Below, piece after piece: positions 11,101 through 23,781 of a DNA stretch of 64,000 nucleotides. Location of the stretch: contig NZ_QCXQ01000001.1 of assembly GCF_003124125.1 (NCBI RefSeq), positions 354,855 to 418,854 of the forward strand, written 5' to 3'. Position 1 is the first letter of the stretch; every line of letters starts with the position of its first letter. Origin of the DNA: Levilactobacillus bambusae (lineage in GTDB: Bacteria > Bacillota > Bacilli > Lactobacillales > Lactobacillaceae). A program made the translations under genes and the position numbers. Under the pieces are notes generated by a model. That model saw only the letters and a program-made list of their open reading frames with translations. It had not been told where the DNA came from and ran no database searches.

Positions 11101-14100
11101 TTTAATGCACTAATACTTGATCCTCCAGTAAAACCCGCTATAGGTTTTAAGAAGGCATCAATAAGTGATTTACCTAATGGTGCTAATGCCTTTAGAACTG
11201 AATTGACTACCTTAATCGCACTTGAAAGCAACTTGAAAAAAGTAGGTAATGCGTCGGTAATAGTAAATTTAGCTAATGGCAAAAGAACATTTTTATATGC
11301 CCACTCTATTGCATCCCATACTGTCTTATCCAAGCCTTTAATCGACTTAAATAAACCTTCTATAGACTTTAAAAGTGGTGTAAAATCCAGTTTTTTAGCC
11401 CACTTTGCCGTTGCATCAGCCATATCGCTAAGATGATCAAATATATCCTTAAAAATTTCAAGAATAGTGTGTAAAATACTTTGTCCAGTCTTACCGGCAT
11501 CCCAAGCTTTTTTGAATTGGCCAGCTAAGTTTCCGATAGTCTTACCAACACTACCCGAAATTTTGAATATGTCTTTAAAGATCCCAGTTCCAACAGCGCC
11601 TTCTTTCCAAGCCGCTGTAAATGAACTTACAAAATCATCAATGACATCTAAGACTTTCTTAATAGCATCTAGCCAACTACCAAACATCTTGGTTCCAGTT
11701 TCGCCTTGATTCCATGCATCGTGAAACGAATCTGCAAAAGTTCCAATTAATTTACCAATCTGTTTAGCAATATCAATAATGTCAGAGAATATTTTTCTAC
11801 CAATATCTCCAGCGTCCCAGGCTTTCTTAAATGAAATAACAATATCATCCAAATCACGTAGTAACTTACCAATATCATTAAGCCACGTTTCAAAAAGCTT
11901 AGTGCCTGCATCTCCTTCATTCCACGCTTTACGGAACGAGTCTGCAAAATCGGCAATCGTGTTATTAATATCGGTAAATAGTTTTAACAGGTTTTGGGCG
12001 ATTCTTTCACCAGTTCCGTCGTTCCATGCCTTTCGGAATGATTCTGTAATACTGCCTAACAACTTTAAGATTGAATCCAGCATCACAAAGATGGATTTAA
12101 TATATTTATCACCGGTACCATGATCTTCCCATGCATCAGCAAACGCTTTGGCAACGTCACCCAGGATGTTGATAATATTAGCGAATAATTGTAATAAGTC
12201 TTCTAACGTTTGAACGCCAAGCTTGCTATCCCAGATTTTAAGGAAGGATTTTCCAATATCACCAATTAACCGTTTGATTTCATTGAAGGCATACTTCATA
12301 GCATCTAAAACAACTTTACCTTTAGCATCCCATGCTTCTTTAATTGGACGATATAGGTCAGCTAAGATATCCCGGAACTTTTTAGCCGCATCGCTTGCTC
12401 CACCAAAGGCTGGGCTAACATTGCCCAATGCCTGTTGAATTCCATCTAGATCTTTAGCTGCATCATCCAATGCATCAGAAAGTGATTTTGTTTCTTCTGG
12501 AGTAAAAGTCTTTAAGGCTTCGTCTTCTCCGCTATCAGAAATAGTATCTTTTGGTGTATATTCTTCCAGGTCTTGATGATGAGCTTCTTTAGGGGTGTAA
12601 TCAGGAATTTCTTTGGAAACGTCCAGCGTGTTAATTTCATCAAAGCCCATGAGATTATTCTTATAATCTTGGTACTTTTTCTTTAGTTCATCGATACGTT
12701 CCTTTTGCTTCTTGTTATATTCCGCAACCTCATCATCTGCACGTTTATTAGAAGCTCGGATAGCATCATTAGCCTGTTCAACAGCTTTCTTACGCTGCTC
12801 GTTAGCTGCTTTAATAGCCGCATTCTGTTCCTGAATAGCTTTCTTACGGGCAGAATTACGAGCTTTTATTTGCGCATTTTCTTCTTGAACTGCCTTTCGA
12901 CCCGCGTCATTTCGAGCTCGAATAGCGGCATTTTCAGCTTGAACGGCTTTCTTAGCAGCTTCGTTAGATGCACTACTAGATCCGGAATCATCTCCTAAGG
13001 CCTTAGCCTGTGTGTACATTTTATTTGCACCAGCTCGGGCCGTAGCATCACTCATACCAAATAACGAGGCACTGAACTTTGCTAACCATCCAGTCGCTTT
13101 TTCCAAGACCTGCATAAATTGATTAATCCATGGCATTACTGTGGAATATAGTGGATAAAAAGCCGCAATTAAGTTTGCCTTAATTTGGTTCAGACTGTTA
13201 CTAAACTGCTTGTTAGTCTTAAATGCATTAGCAAAACCTTCAGAAAGCTTAGTTAATGCTTCAAATCCCACCCCCCATACCAAAAATTGAGCAGGTAATG
13301 ACTTAATTCCACGAGCCAGTTCCGATAATTGACTATCAGATTTCTTAATCCCTTTGTTCATTTTATTTAACGAACTGTTGGAACGAGATCCTAAAGAGGC
13401 CATAGTGCTAGATAGACTACGGGCTTTATGACCCATATCATTCATGCCACTAGAACCACGCTTCAGCATGTAAGAAATTCCAGATAATTTTCCAATAGCA
13501 GTGGCAACTCCTTTAAGAGCTGTCTTAGTTTTGCTTGTAGATCCGTCTAGCAAACTAAATGCTTCCCGTGATCGCTTAGCAACCGTAGCGCTTTCGGACA
13601 AATCCGTATTGACTTTTGGAATTGCCTTACCGAGTTCCCCATAACGATCCTGTAATTTGGCGTACGCTTTATTTAGAGAATCAGAAGAATTAATCGCTTT
13701 GCTAACCTTTTTCTGTACCTTCTCAATTTCTTCGCCAATTTTTCGAGAATCATCGGTTTGAACATTTTGTTTGGCCCCAAACCCCTTACCGGATTCAAAC
13801 TTCATCGCATCTTTTTGTTGGGCCTGAAGTTCTTTAATTTTTCGTTGGTAACTGCCAATTTCGGCTTCATTATGATCCATTTGCTGAGCAATCTTTTGAA
13901 GCTCTGCTGGAATCTCCTTATACTCGTCCTTCATAGAACGAGCTAGATCCTTAGCCGCATTCAGGCTCCGGACCATTTTAGCTTGCTCACTAGCGGCCTG
14001 TTCGTTGGTTCGTGTCGATGTCTTATAATCTCCACGATCGGCAGCTAATCCACCAAGGCTCTTGAGGTTCGCCATCCGTTCCTGTGCAGCCTTTGCCTGT

Positions 14101-15332: not shown

Positions 15333-15449
15333 CTATTTAGTTGTTTTTGAATTATGGACCTTGGTTAATACATTAACCGTATCTAAATCGGCTGCCTTTA
15401 ATTCGGCCTTAGCGGCTGAAATCGGTGCTTCAGATTCTGAACTAGGAGG
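15333..15449 (-). other. Putative +1 frameshift extension of the major tail protein
   Basis: After the tail gene codons AAT CCC TCC TAG, a slip forward by one base at CCC gives CCT CCT AGT and opens a frame that adds 37 residues (PSSESEAPISAAKAE to VHNSKTTK) ending at TAG 15335-15333. The peptide is lysine- and alanine-rich with ordinary codons and fills what would otherwise be a gap. +1 shifting near the ends of structural genes at proline codons has been described in Listeria phage PSA. Here it is inferred from the frame only. Confidence 0.55.
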
Positions 15450-15954
15450 GATTACTCGCTCCAGTTGTTGGTGACTGGCTGAAATCCGGCCCATCTGATA
15501 CTGACACCGTCAGCGTATAGGTAAGCGCCGCATTAGTTGCTAAGGCAGCTACCTGAATGGAGAATGATCCCGTAAAGGTGGCAGTCATTCCATCTGGGTA
15601 AGTAATTCGCCAGTTATATTGCTTTCGGTCATTGGCCTTAGGCTGAATAGCATTCCATGATGGCCCTTTATACTGCACAGTAAAGGCCATAGATGAAGCA
15701 GCCTGGATCCCTTCCAATTGCTTAGCCCGTGTATCCGCTAATGTCGTTACATCAATTTCCTGTGGCGCTCCACCTACAGCAGGTAACGCCTTGACATCAG
15801 CAACTACCGTGTAACTCGTTGTGTTCCCTGGTTCAGCAATTTCTAGCTTTGATCCTGTACCTACTAATCCTGGTGTAGAGTCAACATAAGTATCTGCAAA
15901 CCGCTGTAATACCATAGGTACACGATAAATAGTATTGCTTAATAAAGATTTCAT
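15442..15954 (-). CDS. Major tail tube protein
   Basis: 170 residues in the zero frame. The beta-rich sequence with ALPAVGGAPQEIDVTTLADTRAKQLEG is typical of major tail proteins of phages infecting low-GC Gram-positives, and its place after the tail terminator gene fits. The N-terminus carries VLQRFADTYVD, a motif shared with capsid and scaffold that resembles the Prp cleavage site of ribosomal protein L27; processing would leave a protein starting ADTYVD. A longer form of about 206 residues may be made by +1 frameshifting at 15450-15448. AGGGGGA precedes the ATG at 15954. Confidence 0.85.
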   Translation of the reverse strand: MKSLLSNTIYRVPMVLQRFADTYVDSTPGLVGTGSKLEIAEPGNTTSYTVVADVKALPAVGGAPQEIDVTTLADTRAKQLEGIQAASSMAFTVQYKGPSWNAIQPKANDRKQYNWRITYPDGMTATFTGSFSIQVAALATNAALTYTLTVSVSDGPDFSQSPTTGASNPS

Positions 15955-17551: not shown

Positions 17552-18628
17552 TTAATTAGACGCTTTAATCGGAGTTGCTTGGAAGACTTCATTAGCCCCT
17601 GGGAATGATGGTAGAGCAACCGCAGTAGCCTTTTCCCAGGTGCCAACTGGATCTTTTGTATCCGTATAAATGGTAGCGAAGACATTCCCATGAGCACTTT
17701 TTTGCACTGCAGGGTCGCCCGCCAATCCAATTTCTTCTGGCGTTGGTCCATAAAGTTTTTCACCAAGGATGTCGTCTCCCATTAAGACCAACTTATCTTC
17801 TGGGAAATAACGCTTAGTAGTGAGTACACCTTTGGAATCTTCTTCACGATACTTACTATCATAAGTCCGAATAACTGGTAATCCTTGTGCCTCCATGAAA
17901 GCATCTAAGTCACCTTGACCTAATGCACGGGTTGACGTACCGTATACGGCCTTTAAGACATTAGCATTTTGAGTAAATAGACGGTAAATCTTGCGTGAAG
18001 TAAGAATTCGCGTTGCGGAGACATCCATAGAATCGACCCACTTGATTAAATCATTAATTGGGTCAGCGGAAGCATTATCCCAAGTTGTCCCATCTTTACC
18101 CGTCAAGTCGGCTTGATGTGACTCAGGAACCTGATAGTCAAAGTCGTATTGTTCTTGTGTATCAGGATTGATTACAGATACCTTTCCTGTAGCTAAGGCA
18201 TCCATGGTCATCTTTTCAACTTGTGCGTACACACCTTGAACCAACTCATCAATATCATCATAAACACGGTTCTTAAGATAGTCTGCTTCCTCAGCGGTAC
18301 GAGGGTTTTGTAATGCAATTAAGTCATCTTCTTTGATTTGCATCTTCCGCTTAATCAGTGCCAACTCAAGAGTGCTTTTACTTGCTTGGCGACTGCCGAT
18401 TTCGGCTTCAGCATCAAATGCGGCAACATGTGCAATTACCGGTGTCCGGTTTCCCGCATATACTTGATCCAACTTTAAACTATTTACCCGTCGTGCTGGA
18501 AACAAGCTATCGCCCAAAAATGTTGGGAATTGACGATCGCGTACATAATCTAATACTTGTGGTGTCGAAAACATGTTAGCAATCGATGCAAATCGTTGAA
18601 GATTCATTGAAACTTGCTTTTTCATCAT
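17552..18628 (-). CDS. Major capsid protein, family E
   Basis: 358 residues. LGDSLFPARRVNSLKLDQVY, LIKRKMQIKEDDLIAL and the DPVGTWEKATAVALPSFPG end correspond to the capsid protein E family of HK97-fold shells. The N-terminus MNLQRFASIANMF contains the LQRFA motif, so the mature protein may begin at the Ala after cleavage by the phage Prp-type protease. AGGAGG precedes ATG 18628. It is followed within 12 bases by the connector gene. Confidence 0.9.
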   Translation of the reverse strand: MMKKQVSMNLQRFASIANMFSTPQVLDYVRDRQFPTFLGDSLFPARRVNSLKLDQVYAGNRTPVIAHVAAFDAEAEIGSRQASKSTLELALIKRKMQIKEDDLIALQNPRTAEEADYLKNRVYDDIDELVQGVYAQVEKMTMDALATGKVSVINPDTQEQYDFDYQVPESHQADLTGKDGTTWDNASADPINDLIKWVDSMDVSATRILTSRKIYRLFTQNANVLKAVYGTSTRALGQGDLDAFMEAQGLPVIRTYDSKYREEDSKGVLTTKRYFPEDKLVLMGDDILGEKLYGPTPEEIGLAGDPAVQKSAHGNVFATIYTDTKDPVGTWEKATAVALPSFPGANEVFQATPIKASN

Positions 18629-18645: not shown

Positions 18646-19065
18646 TTATTTTGCTTTAGATGCATTATCAGTAGCAGCTGCCTTTTCCGTCTGCATAGCT
18701 GCACTAGATGCACCAGACCCATCATCGCCAGAGTCACTAGTGGTATCATCCACAAAATGAATTTCTGTCATGGCAGTCTTGGCCTCAGCTGACACTTCAA
18801 CTGGTAGGCGTTGTCCAAGAACCCATGCAGAACGTAAAACGGCAACGTTAGCTGGGCCATTAGTTAAATCAACATCATTATATAAAAGCCCCTTTGCGGT
18901 ACCATCATTTGCGGGTACAGGAGTACCTGCAGGGATGATCTTATGACCTTGGTCATCAATACTTGCTAGCGCATTATCTGGATCGAGCATCATAGGCAAG
19001 CTAACCACATGTGCGGATGCTAAGAAATTAACTTCTTTAACGTCCATTCTTTTTCCTACAAACAT
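18646..19065 (-). CDS. Head decoration-like protein
   Basis: 139 residues. IPAGTPVPANDGTAKGLLYNDVDLTNG and NVAVLRSAWVL resemble the decoration protein fold (lambda gpD type) that stabilises capsids; the C-terminal 35 residues are Ser/Ala/Asp-rich and probably disordered. It lies between scaffold and capsid genes, the usual place. The family assignment is moderate. Confidence 0.65.
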   Translation of the reverse strand: MFVGKRMDVKEVNFLASAHVVSLPMMLDPDNALASIDDQGHKIIPAGTPVPANDGTAKGLLYNDVDLTNGPANVAVLRSAWVLGQRLPVEVSAEAKTAMTEIHFVDDTTSDSGDDGSGASSAAMQTEKAAATDNASKAK

Positions 19066-19077
19066 AATTGTTCCTCC

Positions 19078-19698
19078 TTAGTGAGTCTCCCAAAGGTTTT
19101 GACCCTTAGGAGCACGATTACCATTACGTCGTTCAGCAGCAGTTTCACCCGCAGTTTTGCGAGTTCCATCACCACCAATGCTTGGAGCATGTGCGGATAA
19201 AGCTAATTGCCGATCCACGCCCTCTTTAACGGCCTGACGATAGGTACCAGTGACAGCTTGATAAACGTCAGGTAAGGTGCTCTCATCCTTAAGCGCCGCA
19301 CTAAATACATCAGCTAAACCAACTGGTAACCCATCCTTGGCTAACTTGTTAACGACCTTAACGTGGTTCTCAGAGACCGTAAGCTTTTCTTCTCGGTCAG
19401 TGAGTTCCTTTTCACGTTGGGTAACATCATATTCATGCTTCTCATCGTCCGTCATCTCGTCATACGACTTTTGGGTGTCCAATTCCTTCTGCCATTTAGT
19501 GTGCAGGGTATCAGTCACCTTATTCATCTTTTTATCAAACCAACTGTCTAACTCTGACTGGTCCTTAAAAACAATTTGATGAGGATCATTTTCCTGTTCA
19601 CTTTGATTTTCTTGCTCTGCATCAATACCCGCACCATCAGCACCATCATTACCCTCGTCAGCAAACCGTTGAAGCCATAAACCTACAATTTTCTTCAT
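19078..19698 (-). CDS. Capsid scaffolding protein (DUF4355-like)
   Basis: 206 residues, strongly charged and helical, with QNLWETH at the C-terminus, as in DUF4355-type scaffolds. The start at 19698 follows AGGAGG; the open frame to 19770 has no site. The first residues, MKKIVGLWLQRFADEG, contain the LQRFA motif shared with the capsid and tail proteins, which suggests N-terminal trimming by Prp. Scaffold is expected to leave the procapsid before DNA packaging. Confidence 0.82.
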   Translation of the reverse strand: MKKIVGLWLQRFADEGNDGADGAGIDAEQENQSEQENDPHQIVFKDQSELDSWFDKKMNKVTDTLHTKWQKELDTQKSYDEMTDDEKHEYDVTQREKELTDREEKLTVSENHVKVVNKLAKDGLPVGLADVFSAALKDESTLPDVYQAVTGTYRQAVKEGVDRQLALSAHAPSIGGDGTRKTAGETAAERRNGNRAPKGQNLWETH

Positions 19699-20375: not shown

Positions 20376-22082
20376 TTATTTTCCCCGCTTCCGACTAGGA
20401 TTTACTTGGATGATATTACCGGTATTGATGTTCAACGTAACACGAGCCTTATCCCCATAGTATAACTGAACCGTTTTATCTGAACTACTAGCTCGTACTC
20501 GATTACTCTGTAAGGCATTCTCAACATCAGATAAATGAACGCCATTTCGAATCTTTGCATGCTGAACCTCTTTACTTGGCCCAATGAGTCGTTCCATAAA
20601 ATGTTGGCTGAAAGATTTCACTTCGTGTCCATCTGAAGTCTTGGTACCAATTAAAGTATTCAAGGCTAATTTACGTAGCTTTTGATAATCTTCAAAACTC
20701 ATTAATGGCGACAAGGTTCCTTGAACACGTTGTTTACGATAGATATTCAGTTCCTTCCAATCCTTATCATTACGATACTTCATGTTCTGATAATTATCAA
20801 AGGATACTGGCATATTCTCATCGCCTAAATCTGATTGCATTCCACGATATTGTTTTAGGTCTCGAGTGTAGTTCTTAACCTTCTTTTGCATGAGATTAAC
20901 TTCAGGCTGTCCATGTTTATCTACAAGCATTTGTTCCCACTGTTGATAGGTTGAAAAGCGCGGGATTTTCATCGTCTCATCTGCTATTGGGTCTCGTGCC
21001 GTTCGGTAACCACCTCGCTTCGTGGCCGTGAAATAGGCAACCGCTACCGTCCTACAGAATGGATGAAACGGTGGGTAGTTTCCTGCAAATCCAGCACAAC
21101 GGGCAAGCTTAACGTCGTATACTTTCCCATCATGCGCCCGACAAAATTGGGATGTCCGAAAGTCCAAGACCGCAACCAGTGAGTATTGTTTCACCCCATG
21201 ATCCTGCCATGCCTTTAATTTAGCTTGATGAGCCATGTAACTTGATTCAGTCCGAATTAATCTACGGGCCTTATATGAATTTACACCAAACTCCTTCATC
21301 AGAGCCTGTTCCATATCATGGTCAGTCATTCCCGTCATACGTTGTACAGTAAACAATTCCTGTAACCGCTTGGCTAACTCATCCGTATTCTTCCAAATTC
21401 GCTCCGAATAGCTTTCACCAAACCATGGTGTTTCCAGTTGTTGTTTAACCTCGGTAGTCGTTAACTCTTTCAGTTTAGTAACTGGTTTAACCGACGTAAC
21501 ATTTACCTTATGAATAGGTTCATCTGATTCCGGATTCGTGAATAGGATAACGTCATGTTTAACTTCAGGGATTGCTTCACCCTGATAAACGTTAAACTCC
21601 TTTTGCGTATTACCAATAATAGATTCTGCTGAGGCATTCAAATATGCATCCTGAATCGCTTTAATATAGTAATCAGTCGATTCTGACAGTTGAACGTCTG
21701 CAATGCGTTTAGCGACCACATACGCCTTAGTTCGCAGTAATTCAATGCGACTAATCCGACTCTTAACAGATAGTCCATCTAAATACGCCTTAATCTGTTT
21801 TTGAATCTTTTTATCCTTAGTTTCTTTCAACATTTGTTGTAGGATAACCAATTGATCAGGAGTGATGGCGGTATTAAGAACTTTGGCAACCTCTTCCTCG
21901 GTTAGATTCGACTTGCTAAGATACCTCTCATAGAGTTTGTCGGCTTCTCCCGTTAGATATTGCACTGCTGCAGCATATGCTTGAACTAAAATTTCAACAA
22001 CTTCATCACCAGCATCATGATGTGCCTGCTCCAAACGAACTGCTCGTAGTTCCCAGTAGTTTAGCTTATTCTTGTCTGCCAT
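20376..22082 (-). CDS. MuF-type minor head protein with C-terminal toxin-like nuclease domain
   Basis: 568 residues. The first ~370 residues are the phage head morphogenesis (SPP1 gp7/MuF) domain: ARRLIRTESSYMAHQAKL, FRTSQFCRAHDGKVYD and YPPFHPFCRTVAV, with the conserved Cys/His set. After a linker, the last ~95 residues (SFSQHFMERLIG, RNGVHLSDVENAL, VQLYYGDKARVTLNI, NTGNIIQVNPS) look like a BECR-fold nuclease of the kind found at the end of MuF and polyvalent phage proteins. MuF proteins are packaged in the head and may enter the cell with the DNA. ATG 22082 has GGAG eight bases upstream; it overlaps the protease gene. Confidence 0.82.
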   Translation of the reverse strand: MADKNKLNYWELRAVRLEQAHHDAGDEVVEILVQAYAAAVQYLTGEADKLYERYLSKSNLTEEEVAKVLNTAITPDQLVILQQMLKETKDKKIQKQIKAYLDGLSVKSRISRIELLRTKAYVVAKRIADVQLSESTDYYIKAIQDAYLNASAESIIGNTQKEFNVYQGEAIPEVKHDVILFTNPESDEPIHKVNVTSVKPVTKLKELTTTEVKQQLETPWFGESYSERIWKNTDELAKRLQELFTVQRMTGMTDHDMEQALMKEFGVNSYKARRLIRTESSYMAHQAKLKAWQDHGVKQYSLVAVLDFRTSQFCRAHDGKVYDVKLARCAGFAGNYPPFHPFCRTVAVAYFTATKRGGYRTARDPIADETMKIPRFSTYQQWEQMLVDKHGQPEVNLMQKKVKNYTRDLKQYRGMQSDLGDENMPVSFDNYQNMKYRNDKDWKELNIYRKQRVQGTLSPLMSFEDYQKLRKLALNTLIGTKTSDGHEVKSFSQHFMERLIGPSKEVQHAKIRNGVHLSDVENALQSNRVRASSSDKTVQLYYGDKARVTLNINTGNIIQVNPSRKRGK

Positions 22083-22380
22083 CCCCATCACTCCAAGTCC
22101 ACAGCTCTACGTTGTTAGGATATGCCATAGCAATTTCGGCCACTGTTTCTCTAAACATTGATAGTAGCCGCTCATCACCAGCATCTAAATCCACCGCTGT
22201 CACGATAGATTCATTAGGGTGAAGGTCTGCGGTCGCATGACTTAAGTAGTTAGCTACACCCGTAAAAAGTGTTGATATACCTGCACAGACAATATCGTTC
22301 CCGTAAGGTGCCTGCATAGCATGGCCATAAATACTAATCCTTGCTTGGGTTTCAGTTCGGTCCATCTTGACGTGAATCAC
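22066..22380 (-). CDS. Phage-encoded Prp-type cysteine protease
   Basis: 104 residues. YGHAMQAPYGNDIVCAGIST carries the His (20) and Cys (32) of the ribosomal-processing cysteine protease Prp (YsxB/DUF464), with the same 12-residue spacing as in Staphylococcus aureus Prp, which trims the N-terminal extension of ribosomal protein L27. The GTG at 22380 with AGGAGGG six bases upstream gives the length of the family. It lies between portal and MuF. The scaffold, capsid and tail proteins of this phage carry LQRFA near the N-terminus, close to the LQFFA site of L27, so it is probably a virion maturation protease. Host Prp is known to cut phage 80alpha structural proteins. Confidence 0.85.
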   Translation of the reverse strand: MIHVKMDRTETQARISIYGHAMQAPYGNDIVCAGISTLFTGVANYLSHATADLHPNESIVTAVDLDAGDERLLSMFRETVAEIAMAYPNNVELWTWSDGDGRQE

Positions 22381-23781
22381 GGTATCCCTCCTGTTCATCC
22401 TGATCAACGTTAGTATTAAATTCATTACCACCTAATGCGGTTTTCTGAGTCTTAACCTGTTTAGCAGTTTGTTCATCCATTAATTCAATAACCTTTTGTG
22501 GCTCATATCCATCTGGTAACCAACTGTACGTGATATCACGTGGAATAATACCATCCGCTGTCTTAATGTTACTGATAGTATCGGTCATATTAACGGGGAT
22601 GTTCGGTGTCAGTTGAATACGAACATCGGTAATATCAACATCTTGTTGTTTTACCAGCATCATGTTTTGCATCAGCTGTAAACGACGATGAAGTCCACGC
22701 TTCAGATATTGGCTTTTAACTGAAATTAGGTTCAATAACCCAAAAAGCTTGTATTTCATTGCCTCTCCCGAAATATTGCCTGCAAAGTCCTTATCAGTCA
22801 TATTAGGAACATTGGCCATTTCATGTAAGTCGTTCTTAATCGAATCAGCTAAGGTTTGAACATCGCCCTCTTCTAATGATTTTGTGAGCCATTCAATCTT
22901 GGCATCACTTGGTAAACCATCTAGCATTTGCCCTTTAGATAGTTCACCATCAATATCAGTTCCATACGCTAGCAAGATGGCATCCACAAATTCATCCTTA
23001 TCTGTAATACGGTCAGACTGTAATGAGTTATAGGCGTCAATCAAGGGAATTAATTGTTCAAAGTCTCCCTGCCGTTGTCCATTGTTATAAAATTCTGTAA
23101 TGGGTTCGGAACCCCAGCGATGAGGTGTTACCGTCGCTTCATTCATCAAGTTACTATCACTTAAATTATGGCCTGCTCGTGTGCGATACTGAATCAAATT
23201 AATAGGCGTATAAACTGAAATTAAATAACCATTATCTGTACCATCTAGCTTCCGCTTAGGTTGCAGATAAATCCCAATTAATTCCGTTTCGTCTTCAGTA
23301 TCATCAGTGATTACAATGGTATGACGTGGATCTAAAGCAGCAATATGTTCCTCAGTAGTTTTCTCGTCTAATTTCTTCAAGTATGCCAGCTCATAGGCAA
23401 CACCATAAATTGATAATTGTTGTTCTAGATCCGTATCATGTCATGAGCCATTACATTCATATGATTAAATGCCTCCGTGATAGCTTCAATACTATTACCC
23501 TCTTGAGGAACATAAGTAATTGGATTTCCTGTCATCATACCGGTAATCATATCCGTAAAGTATTTGGCATGGTTCACAACTACATGAGAATCTTTATCCT
23601 GACTGTACGGTGTACCAAGCATTCGACTAAGGATACCTTGTTTGCCACAGTAGTAGCTATAAAGCTTATCGTATTTCTCCCGCTTCCGGTCCAACTCATT
23701 CAGGGCATAATTTAATAACTCATAAGGCGGGTTATCAATATCCTCAATTAGGGATGCATCTACCTTTAACCCCATTTTCAT
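22352..23781 (-). pseudogene. Portal protein, frameshifted by a 5-bp tandem duplication
   Basis: SPP1-type portal. The first part (23781-23425) reads MKMGLKVDASLIEDIDNPPY to MNVMAHD and then runs into a stop. The second part (from 23380, only a TTG start without a site) continues with KKLDEKTTEEH to SRQDGPN. TCATG occurs twice in a row at 23436-23445. Removing one copy joins the parts through DTDLEQQLSIYGVAYELAYL, a normal portal segment, and gives 474 residues, the usual length. The portal is essential for packaging, so the prophage is probably unable to make virions unless this is a sequencing error. Confidence 0.88.

Follow-up and report, generated by a model that had tools for sequence, protein, structure and literature searches.

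A prophage of Levilactobacillus bambusae, contained in a 64,000-nucleotide stretch of contig NZ_QCXQ01000001.1 (positions 354,855 to 418,854; the whole stretch is called the window), encodes a cysteine protease of the Prp family, and the motif LQRFA stands near the N-termini of its scaffold, major capsid protein, and major tail protein. Judging from sequence comparisons, we consider it probable that this phage-encoded Prp matures both head and tail proteins and that its preference at P2 (the x of LQxF↓A, in which the arrow marks the predicted cut between P1 and P1') has shifted. While heads and tails are being assembled, the phage Prp would cleave the F-A bond of LQRF↓A in the three proteins and so release their short N-terminal leaders. 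Its pocket would no longer need the aromatic P2 residue (F or Y) of host ribosomal protein L27 and of lactobacillus phages that depend on the host Prp, and would accept R, M, K, or L. With such a changed P2 requirement, the enzyme-site pair would be at least partly independent of the host Prp.

The phage Prp and the LQRFA sites of the window

The protease, its three candidate substrates, and the site in each are as follows:

22066..22380, minus strand: Prp cysteine protease, 104 amino acids, GTG start, His20/Cys32; PF04327 match, PHROG 4478 peptidase
19078..19698, minus strand: scaffolding protein (DUF4355/Gp46), leader MKKIVGLWLQRF↓A; PF14265, E 9.4e-15, PHROG 172
19660..19674, minus strand: LQRFA site, scaffold residues 9 to 13 (start 19698)
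17552..18628, minus strand: major capsid protein (Phage_cap_E), leader MMKKQVSMNLQRF↓A; PF03864, E 1.2e-39
18587..18601, minus strand: LQRFA site, major capsid protein residues 10 to 14 (start 18628)
15442..15954, minus strand: major tail (tube) protein (Phage_tail_3), leader MKSLLSNTIYRVPMVLQRF↓A; PF08813, E 2.1e-20, PHROG 158
15895..15909, minus strand: LQRFA site, major tail protein residues 16 to 20 (start 15954)

In a profile search, the open reading frame (ORF) at 22066 to 22380 on the minus strand scores 54.4 bits with Peptidase_Prp (PF04327; E 1.5e-14), above the cut-off of 27. Its Gly19, His20, Gly27, Asp29, Cys32, and Ser36 correspond to G21, H22, G29, D31, C34, and S38 of SaPrp, and these six residues are invariant in all 25 aligned phage Prps. 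An AlphaFold2 model of the window Prp, built from the alignment of the 25 phage Prps, has a mean predicted local distance difference test score (pLDDT) of 88.3 and the secondary structure order ββαββαβ, which is described as characteristic of the Prp family (PMC9405229). When this model is used as a Foldseek query, all 11 matches in the PDB at E up to 0.001 are Prp-family chains, among them 7jvs and 7kld (SaPrp with substrate), 2g0i/2g0j, 2idl, and 1s12. Based on the profile match, the active-site residues, and the fold, we conclude that the protein belongs to Peptidase_Prp (PF04327, MEROPS C108). An earlier note on this DNA had placed a Prp-type protease with His20 and Cys32 between the portal and MuF genes, and the profile score, the dyad, and the SaPrp-like model bear this out.

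The six-frame translation of the window, 120,487 residues in total, contains LQRFA exactly three times. All three copies fall within the first 20 residues of a structural protein, namely the scaffold, capsid, and tail protein named in the earlier note. Shuffled ORFs of at least 60 codons contain a mean of 0.017 LQRFA (300 shuffles, maximum 1). The looser pattern LQxF followed by A or S occurs five times, which includes the three LQRFA sites, one match in a 30-codon frame, and one within the tape measure protein. The last of these is LQLFA at 12194 (minus strand), far from the N-terminus of the 2101-residue protein and probably there by chance. We infer that the phage Prp cleaves LQRFA at the F-A bond.

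The same genome has a second, chromosomal PF04327 gene, located between the genes for L21 and L27 about 6 kb outside the window. Host L27, also outside the window, begins MLMNMNLQFFSHHKGGG and has the site LQFF↓S, with F at P2 and S at P1'. The window gene does not lie between rplU and rpmA, the position of the ribosomal Prp/YsxB gene; it lies in the head operon. The proposal that the phage carries its own enzyme thus agrees with a PF04327 gene that is additional to the chromosomal one and keeps a conserved head-operon position.

Protease and sites in related phages

Annotated genes follow the order portal, Prp, MuF, scaffold, capsid, and tail gene in three Oenococcus phages (Krappator149, phiS11, and phiS13), in Lactobacillus prophage Lj965, and in Enterococcus phage phiFL3A. 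Krappator149, phiS11, phiS13, and Lj965 have LQRFA on scaffold, capsid, and tail protein alike; the sites of phiFL3A are LQFFA, LQIFA, and LQLLA, with F at P2 of the scaffold. Further loci were taken from GTDB genomes and IMG/VR, which were scanned with capsid, Prp, scaffold, and tail alignments. A scan of viral contigs with the window Prp as a single protein gave no match, and alignment queries were needed. Identical Prp cores were collapsed, which left 98 distinct loci with a Prp (Prp+ loci). The phiFL3A capsid aligned poorly (26% identity) and was omitted from the capsid query. The leader was absent from the scaffold and tail queries, which therefore could not favor the motif; it was part of the capsid query, but the peptide patterns used lay elsewhere. 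Under the site pattern, P4 could be L or I, P1 could be F, L, or M, and P1' could be A, S, T, or G, and a few sites make use of this latitude (e.g., DIQRFS and LQRFT).

Among the Prp+ loci with a scaffold match (n = 72), P2 of the scaffold is R in 37, M in 16, L in 13, F in 4, and A in 2. For the capsid (n = 63), P2 is R in 36, H in 7, and M in 1, and 19 capsids have no leader; for the tail protein (n = 63), it is R in 44, K in 11, L in 4, N in 2, and Q in 1, plus one spurious match. R is present on all three proteins in 31 of the 98 distinct Prp+ loci. A reading in which R at P2 is fixed was rejected, since relatives also have M, K, L, H, N, Q, A, and rarely F. Across these sequences, P2 is not strictly Arg and is looser outside Lactobacillaceae.

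The earlier note counted a tail protein among the substrates, and this extends to relatives: the site is on the tail protein in 62 of the 63 distinct Prp+ loci with a tail match (the remaining one, L076, is a spurious ORF match) and, when distinct tail proteins are counted, in 54 of 54. Six tail proteins have no Prp in view. Four of them have the site and come from contigs that end before the Prp position, and those of L226 and L401 have no site. R or M sites in the absence of a Prp were found in nine loci (L061, L074, L077, L078, L083, L086, L252, L283, and L307), all of them cut-off contigs that end within about 3 kb upstream of the capsid gene or before the head genes, short of the Prp position. 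In L226 and L243, whose flanks are complete, no Prp is matched, and P2 of the scaffold is F and L, respectively. In L226, a relative, LQFFA is confined to the scaffold, and neither the capsid nor the tail protein has a leader. The site pattern is enriched 9.5-fold at N-termini (256 in 89,600 residues versus 136 in 453,534), a count that includes terminase and portal matches that are not sites, because one terminase pattern, filtered out in another site count, was kept in this one. Absence of the motif from relatives that keep the protease, which the earlier note had named as evidence against its proposal, was looked for and is not what these loci show.

Source of the Prp, residue at P2, and alternative explanations

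Within the Lactobacillaceae sample, the residue at P2 sorts with the source of the Prp. A PF04327 match is present in 216 of 301 Lactobacillaceae genomes; among the matches listed, 16 genomes have more than one and 4 have a single match that lies inside a prophage. At least 22 prophage Prps (that of the window, L175 to L194, and L454) all accompany a scaffold site, with R at P2 in 13, M in 8, and L in 1, which makes P2 non-aromatic in every one of the 22 prophages found to have their own Prp. After a search of these 301 genomes for the scaffold family PF14265, another 100 regions were read and then the nine weakest rows. Prp-less phages in Prp-labelled hosts have a scaffold site in 34 of 75 cases (LQYFA in 21, LQFFA in 12, and LQRFA in 1), and P2 is therefore F or Y in 33 of 34. 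Where neither phage nor host has a Prp, the scaffold site is found in 0 of 31. Fisher tests run before the nine weak rows, with relatedness ignored, give p 2e-14 for aromatic P2 (32/33 versus 0/22) and p 2e-7 for site presence (33/68 versus 0/31). The nine weak rows hold one LQFFA in seven Prp-labelled hosts, G181 with no site, and a G095 row that is not scaffold-like. The earlier note described a site altered at one position, R for F; a P2 residue different from that of the host is what we find (F or Y in 33/34 versus 0/22), but the residue is not always R.

The label "host has Prp" stands for any PF04327 match in the genome, among the matches listed. Four genomes with a prophage Prp only (G095, G134, G181, and G200) were recognized and kept out of the 75; G035 and G078 were searched again, without a reading of their neighborhoods, and the remaining single-match genomes were taken as chromosomal. 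Start codons were set by a ribosome-site rule in the enrichment count and in one further site count, and the whole frame upstream of the domain was used for Prp-less scaffolds. The sole LQRFA scaffold without a Prp in the Lactobacillaceae sample is that of L430, which we read as a prophage remnant because no capsid, portal, or Prp ORF is listed and the MuF ORF is short. Its scaffold and small head protein are present, and it was kept in the counts. The Prp-less loci have no site on recognizable capsid homologues or on the one tail homologue. In L356 to L455, Prp-less phages in Prp-positive lactobacilli, the scaffold site is mostly LQYFA, and the N-termini of the other ORFs (90 amino acids or longer) gave no convincing second site.

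Comparison of the phage and host substrate pockets, as proposed in the earlier note, gave a difference that has exceptions. Phe42 of SaPrp is reported to contact the P1-P2 Phe-Phe of the peptide and to vary between species (PMC9405229). The equivalent position is Ile in 15 of 15 Lactobacillaceae host Prps and polar or acidic in 33 of 33 distinct phages that have a capsid leader and R at every site found (T in 18, E in 8, S in 5, Q in 1, and D in 1). In phages with sites outside these 33, it is Q in 17, I in 13, T in 3, V in 3, G in 2, and E in 1. This is a correlation within related sequences, with exceptions, and the Phe42-equivalent position may take part in the P2 change. In the Prp tree, the 15 host Prps are on one side of a branch (95/88) with no phage row among them. 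The phage Prps are in at least two lineages, although the tree has few columns and many forks are unresolved, and most all-R phage Prps are in one group (89/88) that also holds F, M, Q, A, and N loci.

The shared tree group of most all-R Prps, together with the tolerance of both F and H at P2 in 80alpha, would fit an explanation in which Arg at P2 was inherited in one phage lineage, unrelated to the protease, and both enzymes cut either site. We consider this unlikely, since three unrelated proteins share R within a phage in the 31 loci counted above, two phage Prp lineages both lack F and Y in the Lactobacillaceae sample, and the Phe42-equivalent residue differs in all-R phages, if not in every one.

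Less probable again is that the chromosomal Prp of the host does the trimming, as in 80alpha, and that the phage Prp is a redundant copy or spares the host enzyme. The host here does have a Prp, in 80alpha both LQFF↓A and LQHF↓A are reported targets of the host enzyme (PMC9405229, PMC5744158), a pattern scan of 14 kb of 80alpha found no Prp, and 34 of 75 Prp-less phages in Prp-labelled hosts have the scaffold site. We set redundancy aside based on P2 sorting, on genomes without a host Prp, and on fusions. Lactobacillaceae phages that lack a Prp have F or Y at P2, and those with their own have R, M, or L. In the four genomes whose only PF04327 match is that of the prophage, sites are still present. 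One of these, the Oenococcus-like G095, has rplU next to rpmA and an L27 that starts MLEKLQNLIKLAHHKGGG; its prophage shares 67% DNA identity with Oenococcus phiS13 over 5.2 kb and has LQRFA on each of the three structural proteins. G134, G181, and G200 have LQRFA on scaffold and tail protein and a leaderless capsid. Our preferred reading, a phage Prp with its own P2 preference, implies that the host Prp presumably cuts LQRFA poorly or not at all.

The fusions tie enzyme to site in one frame. In 18 of 131 distinct Prp cores, mostly from viral contigs, Prp is fused in frame to the downstream protein with LQxFA at the junction. In four of them (L456, on the same contig as L160; L457; L458; and L465), the stretch that leads from the Prp domain to the site contains no ATG, which makes separate translation of the second part less likely; some of these four have GTG codons there. 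In 12 of the remaining 14, the second part could have its own start, at a Met no more than two residues from the site. The second part is probably a scaffold, since it immediately precedes the capsid gene in L135 and L160; in these two loci the scaffold profile gave no match to it. Sequencing error may account for a fusion in a single contig, but the junction recurs.

We think it very unlikely that the leaders stay uncleaved and that LQxFA acts instead as a docking or chaperone signal to which Prp or a different factor binds. The 80alpha scaffold is reported to need its leader but not leader cleavage (PMC5744158), and Prp has been proposed as a chaperone of L27 (PMC9405229). However, the catalytic dyad is invariant in the 25 aligned phage Prps, and among the leaderless capsid homologues (30 distinct sequences) a Met coincides with P1 of the predicted F-A bond in 25 and lies within one residue of it in 28, where the Met nearest the predicted cut was taken, so that the agreement leans on this choice where several Met are possible. 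The capsid leader looks like an add-on that ends at the predicted cut. It is extremely unlikely that the phage Prp acts mainly on host L27 and supplies a ribosomal protease during infection, as its membership in the family of the L27 protease might suggest, because host L27 has F at P2 and S at P1', the gene is placed in the head operon, and, among g15 genomes, three that have a prophage Prp and two that lack one have similar L27 leaders.

All species with a long L27 are stated to encode Prp (PMC9405229). L27 directly follows L21, with no Prp gene between them, in 20 of the 20 Prp-less Lactobacillaceae genomes read (loci L010 to L012, L014, L015, L017 to L019, L021 to L023, and L027 to L035) out of 85 Prp-less genomes in the sample. 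The L27 frames of these genomes retain an N-terminal extension, often with a degenerate site (e.g., NLQMFAHHKGGG and NLTMLAHHKGGG), and in two of them translation could start at a Met immediately ahead of AHHK. A less strict profile search brought up no convincing Prp (best E 0.06).

Several observations weigh against our preferred reading or limit its scope. In the 80alpha capsid, the sequence that SaPrp is reported to cleave is LQHF↓A (PMC9405229, PMC5744158), and cleavage of 80alpha capsid and scaffold is reported to be dispensable for viability (PMC5744158). The own-Prp lactobacillus phages are related, so the P2 pattern is not fully independent and the Fisher tests overstate certainty. 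Own-Prp phages can also have F at P2 (4 of 72 scaffolds, that of phiFL3A among them), and in L243, a viral contig that lacks a Prp, P2 is L; outside Lactobacillaceae the split by Prp source is thus weaker. L27 of other Firmicutes also often has L at P2 (PMC9405229, Table 2), so aromatic P2 marks host-Prp sites only within Lactobacillaceae. At the Phe42-equivalent position, L047, L070, and L185 (R on scaffold and tail protein, leaderless capsid) have I or V, and most phages with other P2 residues have Q or I, the latter as in hosts. Finally, the portal gene of the window is broken, and this prophage copy may therefore no longer make virions.

The head operon, known systems, and implications

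The prophage genes run in the order portal, Prp, MuF, scaffold, small head protein, capsid, head-tail ORFs, and tail tube. The genes of this region other than those listed above are as follows:

22352..23781, minus strand: SPP1-type portal gene, split into ORFs 23425 to 23781 and 22352 to 23380; SPP1_portal profile positions 3 to 84 and 113 to 414
20376..22091, minus strand: MuF-like minor head protein, directly downstream of Prp; PF04233, E 6.8e-11
18646..19065, minus strand: small head protein between scaffold and capsid, without an LQxFA site and without a Pfam match

The split of the portal gene (22352 to 23781) may reflect a defective prophage or an assembly error. The small head protein has the same position in L004, L005, L007, and L008, where it is annotated as major head protein. 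Straight after the stop of the tail protein (about 15336 to 15444), some 35 codons are open in another frame with no obvious start, and it looks as if a frameshift could extend the tail protein. No prohead protease of another family (HK97/S78 type) was found among the ten head and tail ORFs scanned.

The closest known system is host Prp/YsxB (MEROPS C108), which has the same family, dyad, and fold, cuts at LQx(F)↓A near the N-terminus, and has scaffold and capsid substrates. In contrast, the window enzyme is phage-encoded in a head operon, the tail protein is regularly included, and P2 of the phage sites is mostly R, M, K, or L, compared with F or Y in Lactobacillaceae hosts. Trimming of 80alpha capsid and scaffold by host Prp, which the earlier note had mentioned, is already in print (PMC5744158), as is a tail protein with the motif (phi13). 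Maturation of the 80alpha type, dependent on the host Prp, does not describe the window, in which an own Prp is present and P2 is R. The phage 80 capsid and the phi13 major tail protein, like the proteins of the window, have the Prp motif on non-homologous structural proteins (Kizziah et al. 2017, PMC5744158); unlike the window, these are S. aureus phages discussed with a host-encoded Prp. The window Prp matches a Krappator27 protein, and X27_gp4 of Krappator, described as "putative maturation head protease," is a homologous gene in the same place (PMC12403621). The passages of that account consulted here contain no site, substrates, P2 shift, or relation to host Prp.

The Prp-LQxFA fusions occur only in related viral records and not in the window. 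In lambda, C/Nu3 combines protease and scaffold in one reading frame, with a protease outside the Prp family. The protease-scaffold fusion of phage P2 is likewise one reading frame, with a protease of another family than that of the Prp-LQxFA fusions (PMC6893505). In the open-licence PMC literature, we found no report of a P2 shift, of dependence on the Prp source, of Prp-LQxFA fusions, or of a phage-encoded Prp with its own sites. One candidate source on Prp, PMC8987985, was discarded because the match was to spliceosomal Prp8 only.

A broader interpretation, to which we give an even chance of being correct, is that phage Prps form a separate branch of the family and follow cut-site rules of their own, uncoupled at P2 from the ribosome-processing Prp of the host, that this branch can serve phages of Prp-less hosts and includes the tail tube among its substrates, and that some gut phages have a self-cutting Prp-LQxFA-scaffold fusion. 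If this is true, the Firmicutes L27 protease may be a domesticated relative of phage enzymes. Prp is discussed as an antibiotic target (PMC9405229), and a Prp branch with an altered P2 preference would inform the selectivity of Prp-directed antibiotics. The phages described here would be a natural experiment in protease specificity, in which one family has two cut-site grammars at P2 that are sorted by supplier in lactobacilli. This would make testable why Prp trims head and tail proteins at all, how a phage frees itself from dependence on a host enzyme that is essential, and what the origin of the L27-processing Prp is.

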